The position numbers and the translations under genes are program-made. From Terriglobus roseus (GTDB lineage Bacteria > Acidobacteriota > Terriglobia > Terriglobales > Acidobacteriaceae), in NCBI RefSeq assembly GCF_900105625.1, contig NZ_FNSD01000001.1, positions 3,224,001 to 3,288,000 of the forward strand: a stretch of 64,000 nucleotides of DNA, given 5' to 3'. Positions 49,809 to 58,349 of this stretch are shown here, piece after piece. Each line of letters begins with the position of its first letter. The first letter of the stretch is position 1. Below the pieces are notes generated by a model that was not told the DNA's origin, did not search any database, and saw only the letters and a list, made by a program, of their open reading frames with translations.

Positions 49809-49837
49809 TTGGCGCACCGGCCATGCGTTGGTATACT
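49809..49837 (+). promoter_or_regulatory. Promoter of the tRNA-Phe transcript
   Basis: TTGGCG (49809-49814), 17 bases, TATACT (49832-49837). About 100 bases of leader precede the tRNA. Confidence 0.6.
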
Positions 49838-49941: not shown

Positions 49942-50016
49942 GGCCAGATAGCTCAGTGGTAGAGCGCGGCCCTGAAAAGGCCGGCGTCGGCGGTTCGATC
50001 CCGTCTCTGGCCACCA
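49942..50016 (+). tRNA. tRNA-Phe (GAA), CCA encoded
   Basis: GGCCAGA pairs with TCTGGCC in the acceptor stem; D arm GCTC...GAGC; anticodon stem CGGCC/GGCCG around loop CTGAAAA (anticodon GAA, Phe); T arm GGCGG-TTCGATC-CCGTC with one G-T pair. The CCA end is encoded at 50014-50016. The last 40 bases of this tRNA recur in the three 113-bp repeats that follow directly. Confidence 0.95.
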
Positions 50017-50051
50017 CTCCTTCAACATCTAAAGAGTCCGAGCCGCGCTCC

Positions 50052-50129
50052 TTGAGCGTAGCTCCGTGGCATGCCCGCGGCCATGGGAAGGCCCTCGCGT
50101 CGGCGGTTCGATCCCGTCTCTGGCCACCA
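50052..50129 (+). pseudogene. tRNA-like sequence 1
   Basis: T arm, acceptor 3' strand and CCA match tRNA-Phe. The 5' strand TTGAGCG cannot pair with TCTGGCC, the D stem is broken and the anticodon-like loop is ATGGGAA, which would read GGG. Unlikely to work as a tRNA. Confidence 0.7.
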
Positions 50130-50164
50130 CTCCTTCAACATCGAAAGAGTCCGAGCCGCGCTCC

Positions 50165-50242
50165 TCGAGCATAGCTCCGTGGCATGCCCGCGGCCATGGG
50201 AAGGCCCTCGCGTCGGCGGTTCGATCCCGTCTCTGGCCACCA
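50165..50242 (+). pseudogene. tRNA-like sequence 2
   Basis: As copy 1 with a few changes (5' strand TCGAGCA). T arm and CCA intact. Confidence 0.7.
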
Positions 50243-50277
50243 CTCCTTCAACATCTAAAGAGTCCGAGCCGCGCTCC

Positions 50278-50355
50278 TTGAGCGTAGCTCCGTGGCATGC
50301 CCGCGGCCATGGGAAGGCCCTCGCGTCGGCGGTTCGATCTTATCTCTGGCTACCA
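50278..50355 (+). pseudogene. tRNA-like sequence 3 (most decayed)
   Basis: Changes in the T stem and acceptor (TTCGATCTTATCTCTGGCTA) leave only part of the fold, as expected for the oldest or unselected last copy. Confidence 0.7.
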
Positions 50356-50598: not shown

Positions 50599-50628
50599 GG
50601 CGCTGCCGTTCAGGCAGCGCCGCAGGGG
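50599..50628. terminator. Hairpin at the end of the ribbon-helix-helix gene
   Basis: GGCGCTGCC (50599-50607) and GGCAGCGCC (50613-50621) form a perfect 9-bp stem. On the minus strand it overlaps the stop of the RHH gene and is followed by ATTCGTTTTAGGTTTTGC, a good terminator tail. Confidence 0.7.
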
Positions 50629-50798
50629 TTTTGGGGCCCAGGCTCTGCTTTGCCTGTTAGCCATTCATGGTGCTGCAGTGACGCCAATTTCTCAGCCGCG
50701 GCGAGAATCATAAACTCGTCGACGGACAAACTCTGAGCCTTGGCCACCTCCACGATTTTCGAGTACAGAATCTCGGGTAATTGCAAGGAAGCGGTCAT
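50610..50798 (-). CDS. Ribbon-helix-helix protein (HicB/Arc-type antitoxin-like)
   Basis: 62 residues from ATG 50798 with AGGA upstream. LQLPEILYSKIVEVAKAQS followed by SVDEFMILAAAEKLASLQ has the ribbon-helix-helix pattern of small antitoxin or HicB C-terminal domains. No toxin gene of HicA type (about 60 residues with a dsRBD fold) is adjacent. It is a paralogue-like partner of the protein at 51328-51564. Confidence 0.7.
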   Translation of the reverse strand: MTASLQLPEILYSKIVEVAKAQSLSVDEFMILAAAEKLASLQHHEWLTGKAEPGPQNPCGAA

Positions 50799-50872
50799 TT
50801 AATCCTGGGAAGACCGCGGTGCAGCGTACGGCGATAAGTGAACAACAGCGTACGGCAGGAGCGGCCGGGGAG

Positions 50873-51280
50873 TTAATGGATGTTAGGTAGAAAACCGAGC
50901 GCGCGTGCGTCGGCATCAGTCAGTTGCCGGTGAACAGTCTCTCCACCGTCGATAAGCTTGAGGACATCGTCGACTTCATTCTCTGTGAAGCAGGTAAGCA
51001 AGCAGGTCCGCAACGCGTCGGGAGAATCACAGGTAAACGGTTCAGCCGAGTGGAAATTAACCTCGGTTAAGGCAATGCAGCTCATGCGCACATAGATTTC
51101 ATCCCCATGTACGGGAAAGATGCTTAGTAAATGATTTTTCAAAAGAGTGATCTGCCTCTGAACGTGCGGCAATAGGTGCTTTTTGCCTGCACAAGGATTC
51201 AAAGTATGAGGCAGTTTTCGCCTTTTTGGTTTTCCATAGGACCTGTCTTTCGGCAGGCACTCATACGTTGCATTTGGCAC
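50873..51280 (-). CDS. Hypothetical protein between two ribbon-helix-helix genes
   Basis: About 135 residues. The frame is open upstream to 51583 but there overlaps the RHH gene in another frame, so the start is placed tentatively at GTG 51280. The last 70 residues look real (YVRMSCIALTEVNFHSAEPF, FTENEVDDVLKLIDGGETVH, LTDADARALGFLP) with an acidic, helical C-terminus. The N-terminal part is basic (GKPKRRKLPHTLN). No family recognised. It could be the partner of one of the RHH proteins. Confidence 0.45.
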   Translation of the reverse strand: MPNATYECLPKDRSYGKPKRRKLPHTLNPCAGKKHLLPHVQRQITLLKNHLLSIFPVHGDEIYVRMSCIALTEVNFHSAEPFTCDSPDALRTCLLTCFTENEVDDVLKLIDGGETVHRQLTDADARALGFLPNIH

Positions 51281-51327
51281 AGGGAGAACCCTCAGGGTGT
51301 TGGAGGCTCTTTCGCTGCTAAGGAATC

Positions 51328-51564
51328 CTAGCGTCTTCGAAGCTGCGCCGAAGGCGCACTGGCGCGGATTGCGGTGGGCGATGGAGCTTTCGCGTCGTTC
51401 TGCCGAATCCAGCTGTCGTGTTCGAGGCGGCTGAGTTTCTCGGCAACGGCGAGGCTGATGAAATGGTTGAGCGAGATCCCTTCCTGGCCTGCAATCTCTG
51501 TTGCCTGCAGTCGAATGGACGGGCAAAGACGGAGTGGGAAAGATAAGGCGCGTTTCTGTTCCAT
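51328..51564 (-). CDS. Ribbon-helix-helix protein (HicB-type antitoxin-like)
   Basis: 78 residues from ATG 51564 with GAGGA upstream. ALSFPLRLCPSIRLQATEIA and GISLNHFISLAVAEKLSRLE give the RHH pattern; the second part is close to the common HicB antitoxin C-terminal sequence (GISLNQF...AVAEKL). The tail is basic and Ala/Pro-rich. DNA-binding, probably autoregulatory. No adjacent toxin was recognised. Confidence 0.7.
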   Translation of the reverse strand: MEQKRALSFPLRLCPSIRLQATEIAGQEGISLNHFISLAVAEKLSRLEHDSWIRQNDAKAPSPTAIRASAPSAQLRRR

Positions 51565-51915
51565 GTTTCCTCGGCTGCCCCATTTGGATGCGAGCGCTCT
51601 ACTGGCTGACCTATGAAGAAAAGTGATTGACCGCTTGGAATCGATGGGTGGCTGAACCGCCCATTCGACTGACGACACTTCGCCTCACTCGCTGAGGTCG
51701 ACGTAGTACAAATGCCCTACATATCCCTACATGCAATAGCCCCGTACCAGGCTGAGTCGGATAACCGTCTCAGTCAGGTAGGTGACATATGGGGAGGTTG
51801 CCACGCATGCCGACCAGGAGCAACACCGCTAAAGTGGTAGGCGCGCAAAACGAATATAGTTTTCCGTCTTGTGAAAGTGTGCGTAGCTAACCCCTTGCAT
51901 TTCAATAAAAGACCT

Positions 51916-52238: not shown

Positions 52239-55200
52239 ATGGAAATACCTCGGTCTTTATCCGCCGCTGACGCTGCGCTGAACATGCGAGTGAATCATCC
52301 CTCGCTGACGTTTGTTCCCTCCGCAGTGCGCAGCCGCACGCTCTGGACGACCAGGCAGACAAGACAGGTCCTGTCTGTCCTGTTGCTGCTTCTGCTCTCC
52401 AGCTTCATGGGATTCCTAGCGGGTTGCGGCGGCGGAGGCTACGCAGGCACGGGCATCACCAGCCTGTCGAAGAGCACGGCAACGATCGACGCAGGCCAGT
52501 CCTTCAGCATTGCTGCGGCAAACCCGGGGAATCTGCCGCTGACATGGACGTTGACAGGGCCAGCCTGCAGCGGCGCTACATGCGGTACGTTGTCGGCGAG
52601 CGACAGCGCATCCAGCACGGTCTACACGGCACCCGCGACGGTCACGACGCAGATGACGGTGACACTGAGCGCGACCGTATCCGGAACGCAGAGCACAAAG
52701 GTTGTTGTCATCACGGTCAACCCGGCGCTGGCGATCACGGGCACGACGCCGTCCGGCGTTGTTGGCGCCGCTTATAGCGCGACACTTGGCACCACGGGTG
52801 GCACGCCCACAGTCACGATGAGCCTGGTTGGCGGCACGCTGCCGGCCGGCCTCACATTCGATCCCTCGACGGGAAAGATCACGGGCACGCCGACTGCTGC
52901 GGGCACCTCCAACTTCACCATCCAGGCTGTGGATCACAGCGACGTCGTAGCGACCGTAACGTCGTTGCGGCAGATCACCATTGGCACCGCCGGCGCAACG
53001 CTGAGCGTCACCGGCACTCCTCCTGCGGGCGTCGTCGGCACCGCGTATAGCTACGCGCTGCTGGCCAGCGGCGGCACATCGCCTTATACGTGGGGGATTA
53101 CGTCGGGCGCGCTCCCGGCAGGGCTGACTTTGTCCTCCACGGGCGTGATCTCCGGAACGCCCACGACTGCAGGCACCTCCAGCTTCGTGGCAACGGCTAC
53201 CGACGCTGCTGGCAATAAGGCTGGTTCCTCCTTCGGCATCGTGATCACTGCAGCGGTACCCACAGGCACCCTCACCATCACCACAGGAACGCTGCCAAAC
53301 GGCACCATCAATGTGCCCTACAGCTCCGTCATTGGAGTCAGTGGCGGCACCGGTCCTTACACCTGCACCATCGTCAGCGGAACGTTGCCAGCGGGGCTCT
53401 CGCTCGGCGCAGGCTGTGCGGTGACGGGTACGCCAACGGTCACGGGAACCAGCGCACTCGGCGTCCATGTGACGGACTCCTCCAACCCGGCGCTGAGCAC
53501 CACGGGGAATGTCAGCATCACCATCGGCGCCAGCACCCTGGGCATCACCAGTGGAACGCTGCCGGCCGGCACGGTTGGCACGGTCTACACGGCGACCATC
53601 CCGGTCACGGGGGGAACGTCCCCCTACACCTGCACGCTCACCAGCGGCACGTTGCCTGCAGGCCTGACGCTCGGAGCTGGTTGCACCGTCACCGGCACAC
53701 CGACAACGGCTGGCACCAGCACGGCGACCATCACCATCAAGGACGCCTCCAACCCGCAGCAGACGATCACTCCATCGATCAGCATTACGATCGCTCCCTC
53801 TGCGATGAGCGTCACCAGCGGCACGCTGCCGAGCGGCACCGTCGGCACGGTCTACACCGCGACCATTCCGGTCACGGGTGGGACCGGACCTTACACCTGC
53901 ACACTGGCAAGCGGCACACTACCCGCGGGTCTGACGCTTGGAGCTGGTTGCACCGTGACGGGAACGCCGACGACTGCCGGCACCAGCACGCCGACCATCA
54001 CCATCCACGACTCTGAGAATCCACCTCAGACGATCACACCGGCGATCAGCGTCACCATCAACCCCAGTACCCTGGTCATCAGCAACGGCACGCTGCCGAA
54101 TGGCACGGTTGGCACGGTCTACAGCGCACCCATTCCCGTCACGGGTGGCACGTCGCCTTATACCTGCACACTGACCAGCGGCACCCTGCCCGCGGGCCTA
54201 ACGCTGGGAGCAGGTTGCACCGTCACTGGCACCCCAACGACGTCGGGCGTCAGCACACCGACCATCACCATCAAGGACTCGTCCAGCACGCAGCAGACGA
54301 TCACGCCGACCATCAGCATCACGATCGCTCCTGCGACCTTGAGCCTGACCAGCGGCACACTGCCGAACGGCACGGTTGGCACGGTCTATAGCGCTTCGCT
54401 TCCGATCACGGGTGGCACGGCGCCGTATACCTGCACGGTGACCAGTGGCACCTTGCCCGCAGGCCTGACACTTGGCACTGGTTGCACCGTCACTGGTACG
54501 CCAACGACGGCCGGCACCAGCACGCCAACGATCACCATTCACGACTCTGAGAATCCAGCTCAGACGATCACGCCGACCGTCAGCATCACAATCGCTCCCG
54601 CGACCATGACACTGACCACCGGCACGCTGCCGAACGGGATGGTTGGCACGGTCTACAGCGCTCCGCTCCCGATCACGGGTGGCACAGCGCCTTACACTTG
54701 CACACTGACCGGCGGCGCACTGCCGGCAGGTCTGACACTGGGAGCTGGTTGCACCGTCACCGGCACCCCGACGACGGCCGGCACCAGCACACCCACGATC
54801 ACCATTCACGACTCGGCGAATCCAGCTCAGACGATCACGCCGACCATCAGCATCACGATCGACCCCAGCAACTTCCGGGTGACGAACGGTACGCTGCCGG
54901 ACGGCACGGTAGGCATCGTCTACAGCCAGTTGATTCCGATCGTTGGTGGCACCTCGCCTTACACCTGCGCTCTCGCTTCGGGGGCCATGCCTCCTGGCCT
55001 GACGGTGAACGCGAACTGCACCGTGACCGGAACACCGAGTGCGGCGGGAACCTTCTCGCCGACACTGACAATCCACGACTCCTCGAACCCGCAGCAGACC
55101 ATCACGTCGGCTCTCAGCATCACCATCAATCCGAGCGCTCTCGCAGTCAGCAACGGAACGCTGCCTGCTGGTACGGTTGGCACGCTCTACAACGCAACTA

Positions 55201-58200
55201 TCCCGGTAACGGGTGGAACCGCACCCTATGCCTGCACACTGACCGGCGGCACACTGCCCGCGGGCCTGACGCTTGGTGCAAACTGCGCTGTGACCGGCAC
55301 TCCGACTACGGCCGGTACCAGCACGCCGACCATCACCATTCACGACTCCTCGACCACGCAGCAGACCATCACGCCGACGATCAGCATCACGATCAATCCT
55401 GCGGCGCTGACGGTTGGCACCGGATCGTTACCGGGTGGCACGGTAGGTGTCGTCTACACGCAGCCGATCCCCGTCACGGGCGGCACCGGTCCCTACACCT
55501 GCACGCTGACCTCGGGCACACTGCCCACCGGTCTGACACTCGGCGCAGGCTGCACGGTCACCGGTACTCCCACGACGCCTGGCACCAGCACGCCGGTCAT
55601 CACCATCCACGACTCGGGTAACCCGACGCAGACCATCACCCCGACGATCAGCATCACCATCAGCCCCGCACCCCTGGTGCTTGGTACTGGCGCTCTGCCG
55701 AACGGAACGGTTGGCACGGTGTACACGGCAACGCTGCCGGTCAGTGGCGGCACCTCGCCTTACACCTGCACGCTGGGCGGTGGCACACTGCCAGCTGGTC
55801 TGGCGCTGGGAGCAGGTTGCACCGTGACCGGAACACCGACCACGGCTGGCACCAGCACCCCCACCATTAACGTGTCAGACAGCAGCAATCCGGCTCTCAC
55901 AACGTCTGGCCCGGCGAGCATCACGATCGTTGCCGCGCCTCCCACACTCGTGATCAGCTCACCGCCTCCTGCAACCGTGAACGTGCCCTACACCGGCACC
56001 ATCCCGGTCACGGGTGGAACCGGACCGTATACCTGCCAGGTCGTCAGTGGCACGGTACCCGGCCTGACGGTGAATGCAAACTGCTCCATCACCGGCACAC
56101 CCACCACGACTGGCTCCACACCCATCTCGGTCACCGTGACCGATTCGAGCCAGCCGCCTGCAACGAAGACTGGCACCACCACCATCACGGTCAACGCGGC
56201 CACGACCACACTCACGCTGACGTCTCCTGCCACGGCGACGGTCACCGTTCCGTACACCGGCACCATTGGTGTCACGGGCGGCACCGGTCCCTACACCTGC
56301 GCAGCCCCGGCAGGAACCATGCCGGCCGGTCTGACACTCAATGCAAACTGCTCCGTTACCGGAACGCCTACGGTCGTGGCTGTCACGCCGGTCAACGTAA
56401 CCGCAACGGATTCGGCTAGCCCCGCAAACGTCACCACCGCACCGGTCACCATCACCGTGCAGGCAATCCCTGCGCTGACGCTGACTGGATCCCTGCCCAA
56501 CGCAACGGTCGGTGTGGCTTACACGCAGACACTGCAGGCAGCGGGCGGCGTTGGTCCTTACACCTACGCGGTCACCGCAGGCGCTCTGCCTGCCGGTCTG
56601 ACACTCGCTACGAACGGCACGGTCAGCGGAACACCGACTGCACCTGGCGCCAGCAGCTTTACTGTCACCGCAACCGACTCGGAGGGCACGCCGCAGACGG
56701 CGAGCCTGCCGCTGGTGTTGCTGGTGGTCTACCCAACCACACCGGACGACGCCAAGCTGAAGGGACCGTACGCGTATCTCTTCACAGGCAATGACGACGT
56801 CCTGCTCGGCATCCTCGCCTACCGTACGGCCACGGCAGCAAGCTTCACCGCGGACGGAACGGGCGTCATCAGCGCCGGTGAGATGGACAGCAATCACCAG
56901 ACGTCCACAGCTACCGGCAATACCATCGCGACCAACGAGTTCGTCGGCACCTACACCATCGGTACAGACCTTCGCGGATCGCTCACCCTCAGCACGCTCA
57001 ACGCAGACGGTACTGTGCAGTCCAACACCACCTATGCCATTGCACTCCGCGCGCCGGTTTCGCCGGTGACGATCTCCTCAACCGCCAGCATGACGTTGGC
57101 TGACACCAACCTGCTTGCTTCAAGCAAGGGCTCCGGAACCATCATGCTGCAGGACGCGACGAAGTTTGCCGCGGGCCTGACCGGTAGCTATGTCTTCGGT
57201 CTCCAGGGTGATGCACCCTGCTTCCCGACCTGCACTTTGGGCCTGGTTGCGGGACCTGCTGCTTCGGTCGGACAGTTCACGGCGACCGCTGGCACCATCT
57301 CGGGAACGGGCGACGCCAACCTGGCTGCAACCAACTACCCACAGTCCACACTTGCAGGCAGCTTCGGTGCGGCCGATGCAAATGGACGCTTACAACTCAG
57401 CATGACCACCTCCGGCCTGGCGGGTGTGGCCTTCCCAACCGACTACGCGGTCTATGTGGTCGATTCCAGCCACCTGTTCGTTGTGTCGACGGACAAGCAC
57501 TCCTCCTTCGTCCTGCAGGCTGGTACGGCGCAGCTGCAGACGCAGGCTACCTATAACAATGCGTCGATGAATGCACCCTTCGTCGGCTATGAAAACTCCC
57601 CGGTCAACCCTGGACTGGTGGGCGCCACACTGCAGAGCGTTGCCAGCCTCTCGTCCGCAACGATCTTCCGCGGAACGGGTAACGGCAACGGAACCTGCAC
57701 AACCACCAACGTGGACACGGGCGGCACCACCGGCCTGGTCAACTCCATCGTCGGAGCGGTCGGCGGCGGGGCTCCCCTTATCGGAGGCCTGCTGGGTACC
57801 TACCAATCGCTCGGCAACAGCAATTGCGCGGTGACTTCGAACGGTCGCGTGGTGCTGAACTACCCAGCACCGAGCTCACTCCTGACCTCAATCCTTGGTC
57901 TGCTGGGAGTCCAGGCAGTGGCGCCGGCACCACGCATCGTCTACCTGGTTTCGCCTAACACCGGTTACTTCCTTGAGAGCAGCTATGCAGGCGTCGGCAA
58001 CATTGAGGCGCAGGTGGGTGCTCCCTTCACCACGGCAACGCTGAACGGAAAGTTCCTCTATAACCAGGTTCCGGCCAGCACGATCGCAACCATCAGCAGC
58101 TCCGGCGAATTGACTGCCGACGGAGCAGGACACACCATCTCCACCCTGGACGAGAACATAGGCGTTGGTTCCCTCAACGTCCTTTCCCTCGGCGTCACAG

Positions 58201-58349
58201 GAGCGGATACCTACACCCTGACGGACGGGGTTGCAGGACGCTACACGCTCGGGAATTACGGCACGGTCTACGCCATCTCTCCCGGCAGGTTCGTCCTTCT
58301 GCAAACAGATGCAGTGGGTACTTCACCCTACATCGCCCTGCTGTACTAG
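52239..58349 (+). CDS. Giant surface lipoprotein with 15 putative-Ig (He_PIG) repeats
   Basis: 2036 residues. A lipobox FLAGC (Cys near 65) follows a hydrophobic segment, preceded by an unusually long basic N-terminus; ATG 52287 is an alternative start. After a BACON-like first domain, 15 repeats of about 88-89 residues run to about 1500, each ending GTPTTAGTSTPTITI-like. In repeats 3-14 a Cys pair sits in PYTC and GAGCTVTG, likely a disulfide in each domain. At DNA level the core repeats have a 267-bp period. The C-terminal 530 residues are another beta-rich acidobacterial domain. Probably a surface adhesin or scaffold. Confidence 0.9.
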   Translation: MEIPRSLSAADAALNMRVNHPSLTFVPSAVRSRTLWTTRQTRQVLSVLLLLLLSSFMGFLAGCGGGGYAGTGITSLSKSTATIDAGQSFSIAAANPGNLPLTWTLTGPACSGATCGTLSASDSASSTVYTAPATVTTQMTVTLSATVSGTQSTKVVVITVNPALAITGTTPSGVVGAAYSATLGTTGGTPTVTMSLVGGTLPAGLTFDPSTGKITGTPTAAGTSNFTIQAVDHSDVVATVTSLRQITIGTAGATLSVTGTPPAGVVGTAYSYALLASGGTSPYTWGITSGALPAGLTLSSTGVISGTPTTAGTSSFVATATDAAGNKAGSSFGIVITAAVPTGTLTITTGTLPNGTINVPYSSVIGVSGGTGPYTCTIVSGTLPAGLSLGAGCAVTGTPTVTGTSALGVHVTDSSNPALSTTGNVSITIGASTLGITSGTLPAGTVGTVYTATIPVTGGTSPYTCTLTSGTLPAGLTLGAGCTVTGTPTTAGTSTATITIKDASNPQQTITPSISITIAPSAMSVTSGTLPSGTVGTVYTATIPVTGGTGPYTCTLASGTLPAGLTLGAGCTVTGTPTTAGTSTPTITIHDSENPPQTITPAISVTINPSTLVISNGTLPNGTVGTVYSAPIPVTGGTSPYTCTLTSGTLPAGLTLGAGCTVTGTPTTSGVSTPTITIKDSSSTQQTITPTISITIAPATLSLTSGTLPNGTVGTVYSASLPITGGTAPYTCTVTSGTLPAGLTLGTGCTVTGTPTTAGTSTPTITIHDSENPAQTITPTVSITIAPATMTLTTGTLPNGMVGTVYSAPLPITGGTAPYTCTLTGGALPAGLTLGAGCTVTGTPTTAGTSTPTITIHDSANPAQTITPTISITIDPSNFRVTNGTLPDGTVGIVYSQLIPIVGGTSPYTCALASGAMPPGLTVNANCTVTGTPSAAGTFSPTLTIHDSSNPQQTITSALSITINPSALAVSNGTLPAGTVGTLYNATIPVTGGTAPYACTLTGGTLPAGLTLGANCAVTGTPTTAGTSTPTITIHDSSTTQQTITPTISITINPAALTVGTGSLPGGTVGVVYTQPIPVTGGTGPYTCTLTSGTLPTGLTLGAGCTVTGTPTTPGTSTPVITIHDSGNPTQTITPTISITISPAPLVLGTGALPNGTVGTVYTATLPVSGGTSPYTCTLGGGTLPAGLALGAGCTVTGTPTTAGTSTPTINVSDSSNPALTTSGPASITIVAAPPTLVISSPPPATVNVPYTGTIPVTGGTGPYTCQVVSGTVPGLTVNANCSITGTPTTTGSTPISVTVTDSSQPPATKTGTTTITVNAATTTLTLTSPATATVTVPYTGTIGVTGGTGPYTCAAPAGTMPAGLTLNANCSVTGTPTVVAVTPVNVTATDSASPANVTTAPVTITVQAIPALTLTGSLPNATVGVAYTQTLQAAGGVGPYTYAVTAGALPAGLTLATNGTVSGTPTAPGASSFTVTATDSEGTPQTASLPLVLLVVYPTTPDDAKLKGPYAYLFTGNDDVLLGILAYRTATAASFTADGTGVISAGEMDSNHQTSTATGNTIATNEFVGTYTIGTDLRGSLTLSTLNADGTVQSNTTYAIALRAPVSPVTISSTASMTLADTNLLASSKGSGTIMLQDATKFAAGLTGSYVFGLQGDAPCFPTCTLGLVAGPAASVGQFTATAGTISGTGDANLAATNYPQSTLAGSFGAADANGRLQLSMTTSGLAGVAFPTDYAVYVVDSSHLFVVSTDKHSSFVLQAGTAQLQTQATYNNASMNAPFVGYENSPVNPGLVGATLQSVASLSSATIFRGTGNGNGTCTTTNVDTGGTTGLVNSIVGAVGGGAPLIGGLLGTYQSLGNSNCAVTSNGRVVLNYPAPSSLLTSILGLLGVQAVAPAPRIVYLVSPNTGYFLESSYAGVGNIEAQVGAPFTTATLNGKFLYNQVPASTIATISSSGELTADGAGHTISTLDENIGVGSLNVLSLGVTGADTYTLTDGVAGRYTLGNYGTVYAISPGRFVLLQTDAVGTSPYIALLY

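Follow-up and report, generated by a model that had tools for sequence, protein, structure and literature searches.

The window analysed here, a stretch of 64,000 nucleotides from Terriglobus roseus, contains a sole tRNA gene, a CCA-encoding tRNA-Phe (anticodon GAA) placed by ARAGORN at positions 49942–50016 of the forward strand. Directly 3' of this gene, three units of 113 bp lie head-to-tail on the same strand and occupy positions 50017–50355, with unit 1 at 50017–50129, unit 2 at 50130–50242, and unit 3 at 50243–50355. The repeat search returned one family, comprising three 147-nt copies that start at 49984, 50097, and 50210, with a spacing of exactly 113 and 113 nt and identities of 98% and 97% to the first copy, far beyond chance. 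Three tandem units behind a tRNA-Phe, as put forward in the original prediction, are therefore borne out by the repeat spacing and the ARAGORN call. The tRNA trailer does lie inside the unit as proposed, and an origin of the units by duplication of the tRNA end plus its flank is supported. The further claim that each unit ends exactly like the tRNA stands for units 1 and 2, with no mismatches in the final 29 nt, and fails for unit 3, with four. Among the 46 distinct tRNA genes read in the genome of the window, nearby tail copies are found at tRNA-Phe only.

The units are not additional tRNA genes. Whilst the GGG of the unit 1 loop resembles a proline anticodon, neither ARAGORN nor, at E values up to 10, the Rfam tRNA model, the kind of covariance-model scoring that had been suggested as a check, recognises any of the three units as a tRNA. 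A protein encoded across the array was likewise rejected, with ORFs of 104 and 94 aa giving no Pfam match (E up to 0.01), and with no common frame kept by the unit lengths (99 bp in a truncated unit and 104 to 186 bp in the others, over 27 units). Behind the array, on the reverse strand at 50600–51678, lie two short ORFs that look alike by eye (SLSVDEFMILAAAEKLASLQ and SLNHFISLAVAEKLSRLE), one with a sub-threshold HicB match, and ribbon-helix-helix proteins are possible products. Further along, at 52239–58349 of the forward strand, an ORF of 2036 aa contains many similar repeats (GTLPNGTVGTVYS and others) and a GCGGGG stretch near its start, which gives it a lipoprotein-like appearance by eye.

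Anatomy of the units

Unit 1 opens with a trailer segment (50017–50041), followed by GCCGCGCTC at 50042–50050, the reverse complement of tRNA positions 21–29. For unit 1 alone, 8 of 200 shuffles give an equally good inverted match, and the block recurs in other units. Next come TAGCTCCGTGG at 50059–50069, a direct copy of tRNA positions 8–18 in the D arm with one mismatch (1 of 200 shuffles equally good), and, at 50076–50129, the tRNA sequence copied directly from its anticodon stem through its CCA, within which the predicted loop ATGGGAA, an altered anticodon loop, is located at 50083–50089. Across the family the usual order after the CCA is trailer, GCCGCGCTC, short loop, GAGCGNAGC, D-arm-like stretch, and direct tRNA copy from anticodon stem to CCA. 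The trailers measure 18 to 35 bases, with 60 in G035, and contain few G residues (96 among the 730 trailer bases of 27 units).

The 5' part of the unit had been regarded as degenerate, however most units hold an inverted tRNA copy there rather than the product of random decay. When the part preceding the direct copy was set against the reverse-complemented host tRNA in 22 units, each with 200 shuffles, the best inverted match fell inside tRNA positions 10–33 in 19 units. This match was reached by two or fewer shuffles in 11 of the 22 units, with 15 exact bases in the G025 copy, and by 5 to 9 shuffles in five, the window unit (8) among the latter. In the other six (the second unit of G015, both units of G099, and the units of G124, G251, and L156) the match is no better than chance, at 22 to 105 of 200 shuffles. 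Of 27 units, 21 carry the core of the block, GCCGCGC, unaltered, five have one change in it, and one has two, with G025 counted among the 21 through an internal chance match, its true block being GCTGCGC. Direct D-arm copies reached by 10 or fewer of 200 shuffles were found in 7 of 22 units (G157 and G259, 0; window and G011, 1; G020, 4; L156, 6; G088, 10), and the clearest of all is GATAGCGCAGTGGT in L249, its D-arm match being GATAGCgCAGTGGT.

Because both the inverted D/anticodon block and direct D-arm copies are found, the unit is read as an altered tRNA copy, and more exactly is best read as one in which the first bases have been swapped for its own D/anticodon segment in inverted form. 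As this inverted copy precedes a direct copy running up to the CCA, a fold-back stands in most units in the place of the 5' acceptor strand.

The inverted block differs where the tRNA differs. In two genera, represented by G025 and G153, the tRNA reads GAGCGCAGCC (GCAGC), the units carry GGCTGCGCTC, and the inverted block is GCTGCGCTC (GCTGCGC). Since the direct copies inside these units also read CGCAGC, the block may follow either the tRNA or the units' own direct copies. The tails of the units also agree with the host tRNA, with the final 33 bases of 26 units (the truncated G259 left out) showing 101 mismatches in sum against their own tRNAs, a value as low as which was reached in none of 5000 permutations of the tRNAs (minimum 109), in a test that ignores relatedness. 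Recombination of the units with their tRNA would yield such resemblance. The T arm is decayed or replaced in four cases, namely window unit 3, G099, G302, and G307.

Range of the units and islands at tRNA-Phe

With a 113-bp unit as the query, matches were obtained in 50 of 61 relatives, in most cases owing to the tRNA itself. Within the genus of the window, the analysis covered the tRNA-Phe locus of 18 genomes, six of which have units: three in the window, five in G002, two each in G008 (the second without its end), G012, and G015, and one in G011. G001 has a 53-bp stub, and the stretch fetched around tRNA-Phe contains no tail copy in 11 of the 18. Counting copies in relatives, another suggested check, thus gives 0 to 5 units within a single genus.

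A covariance model was built from 19 units, leaving out those of G025 and G206 (unalignable), the second unit of G015 and first of G099 (diverged or altered), and units found later. A search of 398 Acidobacteriaceae genomes with this model identified at least 17 that have full-length matches outside the tRNA, with E values of 1.9e-13 or better; tRNA genes themselves score up to 74.8 bits with this model, such that the score ranges of tRNAs and units touch, and G305, whose match within the E limit is the tRNA itself, was dropped. Reading of the loci added eight carriers, namely G025, G242 (with a variant core), G259 and G206 (truncated or degenerate), G153, G307, G302, and G421. Units or their remains are therefore carried by at least 25 of the 398 family genomes, in 12 genera, and in 23 of these 25 carriers they lie directly behind tRNA-Phe in one to five copies. 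The exceptions are G302, where the units follow a displaced tRNA fragment, and G421, where the stretch examined contains no tRNA. Named carriers include Terriglobus albidus DSM 26559 and Acidobacteriaceae bacterium ZG23-2, and five metagenome-assembled genomes, one with the variant core, also carry units, making seven stretches together with the named carriers. At E values up to 1e-12 the covariance matches are confined to the family of the window, being found in 13 of 249 genomes across the order (including G305 and G211, where the match is the tRNA itself) and 4 of 396 across the phylum, although distant relatives may be missed at these ranks because the model is made from this family and the filter was stricter.

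Related genomes may differ by a whole unit. The single unit of the metagenome-assembled genome YF4.bin40 (L156) has no counterpart in G315 (L194), and an alignment of the 800-base downstream flanks, taken behind the unit in the former and behind the tRNA in the latter, contains 708 identical positions, 58 mismatches, and 68 positions with gaps. On the upstream side the two loci are the same at 154 of 161 bases, and the difference between them is located at the CCA boundary.

A viral source for the units was considered and rejected, with the exact tRNA-tail pattern matching one contig of a viral collection, L249 (IMGVR_UViG_3300037258_000144). This contig holds a complete tRNA-Phe gene and one tail-repeat unit, and for that reason likely includes bacterial DNA.

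The original prediction also considered that the units might be what repeated integration had left at the 3' end of the tRNA, and tRNA-Phe is indeed an integration hot spot in this family. Among 30 genomes chosen for extra matches, 14 have a 3' fragment of tRNA-Phe of at least 48 bases that shares contig and strand with the gene at a distance of ~14 to 252 kb, and eight long ORFs from such loci comprise three Phage_integrase matches, one sulfatase, one transporter, and three without a match. Both this evidence for a true hot spot and the freshest unit, that of G299, whose 52-nt shared block is nearly the length of an att block (~48–53 nt), are in keeping with units that are att scars of small or deleted islands using tRNA-Phe as attB.

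The boundaries of the displaced fragments argue otherwise. At 16 of the 20 sites read, identity to tRNA-Phe begins at the anticodon loop behind a common arm, GATTCTAAACCACTTAG, which has 1 to 7 mismatches of 17 at these sites versus 7 to 10 in 27 units; the units, on the other hand, retain sequence from the D arm and the inverted D/anticodon segment on the 5' side of this crossover point. An attR would have identity starting at the crossover together with the arm of the displaced fragments, a combination that the units lack. No further tail copy occurs in the stretches fetched at the 16 anticodon-loop sites, and of the four remaining displaced sites, L177 and L178 have different flanks, L179 is one of the G035 units, and L180 matches the tail over a short length. 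A crossover centred on the anticodon is one known island class, according to the portion of PMC4383910 available to us.

Two genomes bear on the relation between islands and arrays. G302 has an island-type flank at its tRNA, with two units and a truncated third behind a displaced fragment on another contig, so that the array is probably older than that island; islands and arrays look distinct, since the units sit behind the displaced fragment, apart from the island-flanked tRNA. G035 has one unit after the tRNA and a unit-like tail 16.6 kb further on, and no integrase was seen by eye among the ORFs of at least 120 aa between the two copies. Integration remnants are considered unlikely because islands enter at the anticodon loop with an arm missing from the units, and the differing boundary and arm led us to reject integration scars as the main reading; the more particular version, with small or deleted islands, appears very unlikely to us.

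Islander-type islands nonetheless invite comparison, sharing with the units the same tRNA end and direct repeats of the tRNA 3' part. In contrast to the ~113-bp units, Islander candidates are of 2–200 kb with an integrase, as given in the accessible part of PMC4383910, and unlike island ends the units have extra tRNA sequence and are without the arm.

Common island ends at tRNA-Phe were seen in several genera of the family at L162–L181, of the types TTTAGAATCAA.AACTTA and GATTCTAAACC.CTTAG, and belong to an anticodon-loop integrase group. The 16.6-kb block of G035 (L182) contains ordinary-looking genes by eye, among them a response regulator, a sensor kinase, a catalase-like gene, and others.

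Probable transcription, folding, and possible roles of a unit RNA

A promoter-like site lies 5' of tRNA-Phe at 49809–49837 of the forward strand, consisting of TTGGCG and TATACT separated by 17 nt, with TG before the second hexamer (one site found versus a shuffle mean of 0.4). The TGCTATACT box is also present 5' of tRNA-Phe in G002, G008, G012, G015, L156, and L194. A terminator scan found none in 12 of 14 arrays and weak matches in those of G002 and G099. This supports read-through only mildly, because nothing was found behind the 12 arrays either (over 900 bases or a shorter stretch), and among 84 loci that lack tail copies just 10 show a terminator-like site in the first 150 bases. The units are probably transcribed together with tRNA-Phe.

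Predicted folding energies of the units are ordinary, with a mean z of -0.47 over 27 units (-0.22, 0.56, and 0.50 in the window), G025 alone reaching -4.05. A model that pairs GCCGCG with CGCGGC around an inner hairpin gives 86.9% paired cells and a covariation score reached by 33 of 500 shuffles, and the number of its pairs in which both bases have changed is reached by 484 of 500, whereas a rival hairpin with GAGCG gives 91.1% paired cells and is reached by 3 of 500. The two models exclude one another, as they use the same bases, and both were drawn from these sequences, with the block serving to set where each row begins. With consensus folds, pair counts, and shuffles weak and competing, a conserved RNA fold was rejected.

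The suggestion that the units are tRNA-mimic decoys, acting on RNase P, CCA enzymes, or a synthetase, draws on the many units that retain the T arm and the CCA, and on some predicted folds in which the 3' strands of anticodon stem and acceptor stem pair to give a CCA-ended helix. However, the 5' acceptor strand is missing, the T arm is lost in several arrays, and the units give no tRNA-model match in the window (E up to 10) or at the loci of seven relatives (E up to 0.1). With the strand absent and the model silent the decoy is unsupported, and we consider it extremely unlikely.

A selected regulatory RNA would be a CCA-ended, structured molecule serving as a sponge, or as an antisense to tRNA-Phe through GCCGCGCTC, with copy number setting its dose. 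In keeping with this, GCCGCGC recurs from genus to genus, with 21 of 27 units having it exactly, whilst trailers and loops vary, and the block tracks the tRNA in G025 and G153; a tRNA trailer is also reported to act as a sponge, to go by the title of a 2015 paper by Lalaouna. As the block is not sense tRNA sequence, its recurrence needs more than recombination with the tRNA to account for it, and this recurrence speaks against pure neutrality. Set against such a role are its patchy occurrence (at least 25 of 398 genomes), the decayed or replaced T arms noted above, ordinary folding energies, and the fact that a palindrome can be held together by template switching without selection. Template switching can generate and maintain RNA hairpins, as stated in the available text of PMC8794818, and matched arms are thereby explained without invoking selection. 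We regard a selected regulatory RNA as doubtful. A neutral or weakly useful trailer RNA is weighed above a strong function, with a mild role or none the more likely for any unit RNA.

Likeness to E. coli rtT and proposed origin of the array

The E. coli rtT repeats were reportedly described by Landy's group, and Boesl and Kersten are reported to have connected them with the stringent response. Processing of the tRNA reportedly sets free an RNA from rtT, and to our knowledge these repeats had remained a single odd case for decades. Our literature search (rtT, tyrT, and RttR; tRNA-Phe in Acidobacteria; Terriglobus repeats), with subscription literature mostly outside its scope, returned no title on arrays such as those described here. 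In the parts of the sources available, a tandem GA motif in RtT is mentioned in a paper on RNA structure (PMC7657543), and rttR is listed among sRNAs with REPs (PMC12306157).

The original prediction was reminded of rtT, and the likeness goes deeper than had been supposed, with both types of unit carrying an inverted tRNA segment. The rtT units (RF00391; annotated rttR and tpr) lie directly behind a tRNA gene, with three in tandem after tyrV, and each ends with the last bases of the tRNA and CCA and contains a trailer and an inverted tRNA segment. Behind tyrT and tyrV, all four units contain the tRNA tail, a trailer, and an inverted copy of tRNA-Tyr positions 56–77 (0 of 200 shuffles for each). 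By plan, the tRNA-Phe arrays are of the same type, being tandem units behind a tRNA that end in its tail and CCA. They also contain the inverted tRNA segment, at 8 of 200 shuffles for the window unit and at nine or fewer for 16 of 22 units, with six of the 22 lacking such a match; the use of this segment to define the type is our own reading of rtT rather than a published definition. In contrast to the Phe units, rtT belongs to tRNA-Tyr and to another phylum, its units measure 175–178 bp, and its inverted copy of positions 56–77 closes a predicted helix to the tail, whereas the Phe units copy positions ~20–30. The Rfam RtT model, which gives four matches of 133–138 bits at the E. coli locus, has none in the window or in L007, L064, L065, L103, L237, L233, and L249. 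The plan is thus common to E. coli rtT and the tRNA-Phe arrays, without sequence kinship. At the E. coli locus read here (L154, NC_000913 1286000–1288200), the inverted copy of rtT can close a helix with the tRNA tail.

We hold with moderate confidence that the locus is an rtT-like tail-repeat array formed by tandem duplication and template switching, and probably co-transcribed with its tRNA. Formation would begin with a tandem copy of tRNA-Phe and its trailer, after which a template switch on a hairpin during replication may have written the inverted D/anticodon segment over the 5' acceptor strand of the copy. The resulting unit, composed of trailer, fold-back, and direct copy from D arm to CCA, is unable to serve as a tRNA. 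The array could then grow and shrink by unequal recombination across the block of ~50 bases common to tRNA and units, a process that would also keep the unit tails like the host's own tRNA. Finally, the units, probably co-transcribed with tRNA-Phe, would be cut off as CCA-ended trailer RNA. The template-switch hairpins treated in the accessible part of PMC8794818 are similar in having an inverted copy beside its source and arms that stay matched; the difference is that those lie in rRNA and microRNA genes, and that the present one would have produced a tandem tail repeat.

A broader proposal is that fold-back tail repeats form a recurrent, convergent class of transcribed elements born by template switching on tRNA arms, with rtT and the tRNA-Phe arrays arising independently and the block kept for a tRNA-linked RNA job; we offer this tentatively and think it rather improbable as a whole. 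A second family with the rtT plan, having 0 to 5 copies, 12 genera, and a natural empty site, would turn an isolated curiosity into one that can be compared, dated, and tested, and the evolution of an inverted copy can be traced through two differing lineages in which it fits its source tRNA. In the variant of G242 (L087/L159), tRNA-Phe is followed by two tail repeats of 124 bp, whose core differs and contains CCTTCGACTCGCTGGCGCTCGCTCAGGAT and whose T loop and acceptor tail are common to other units.
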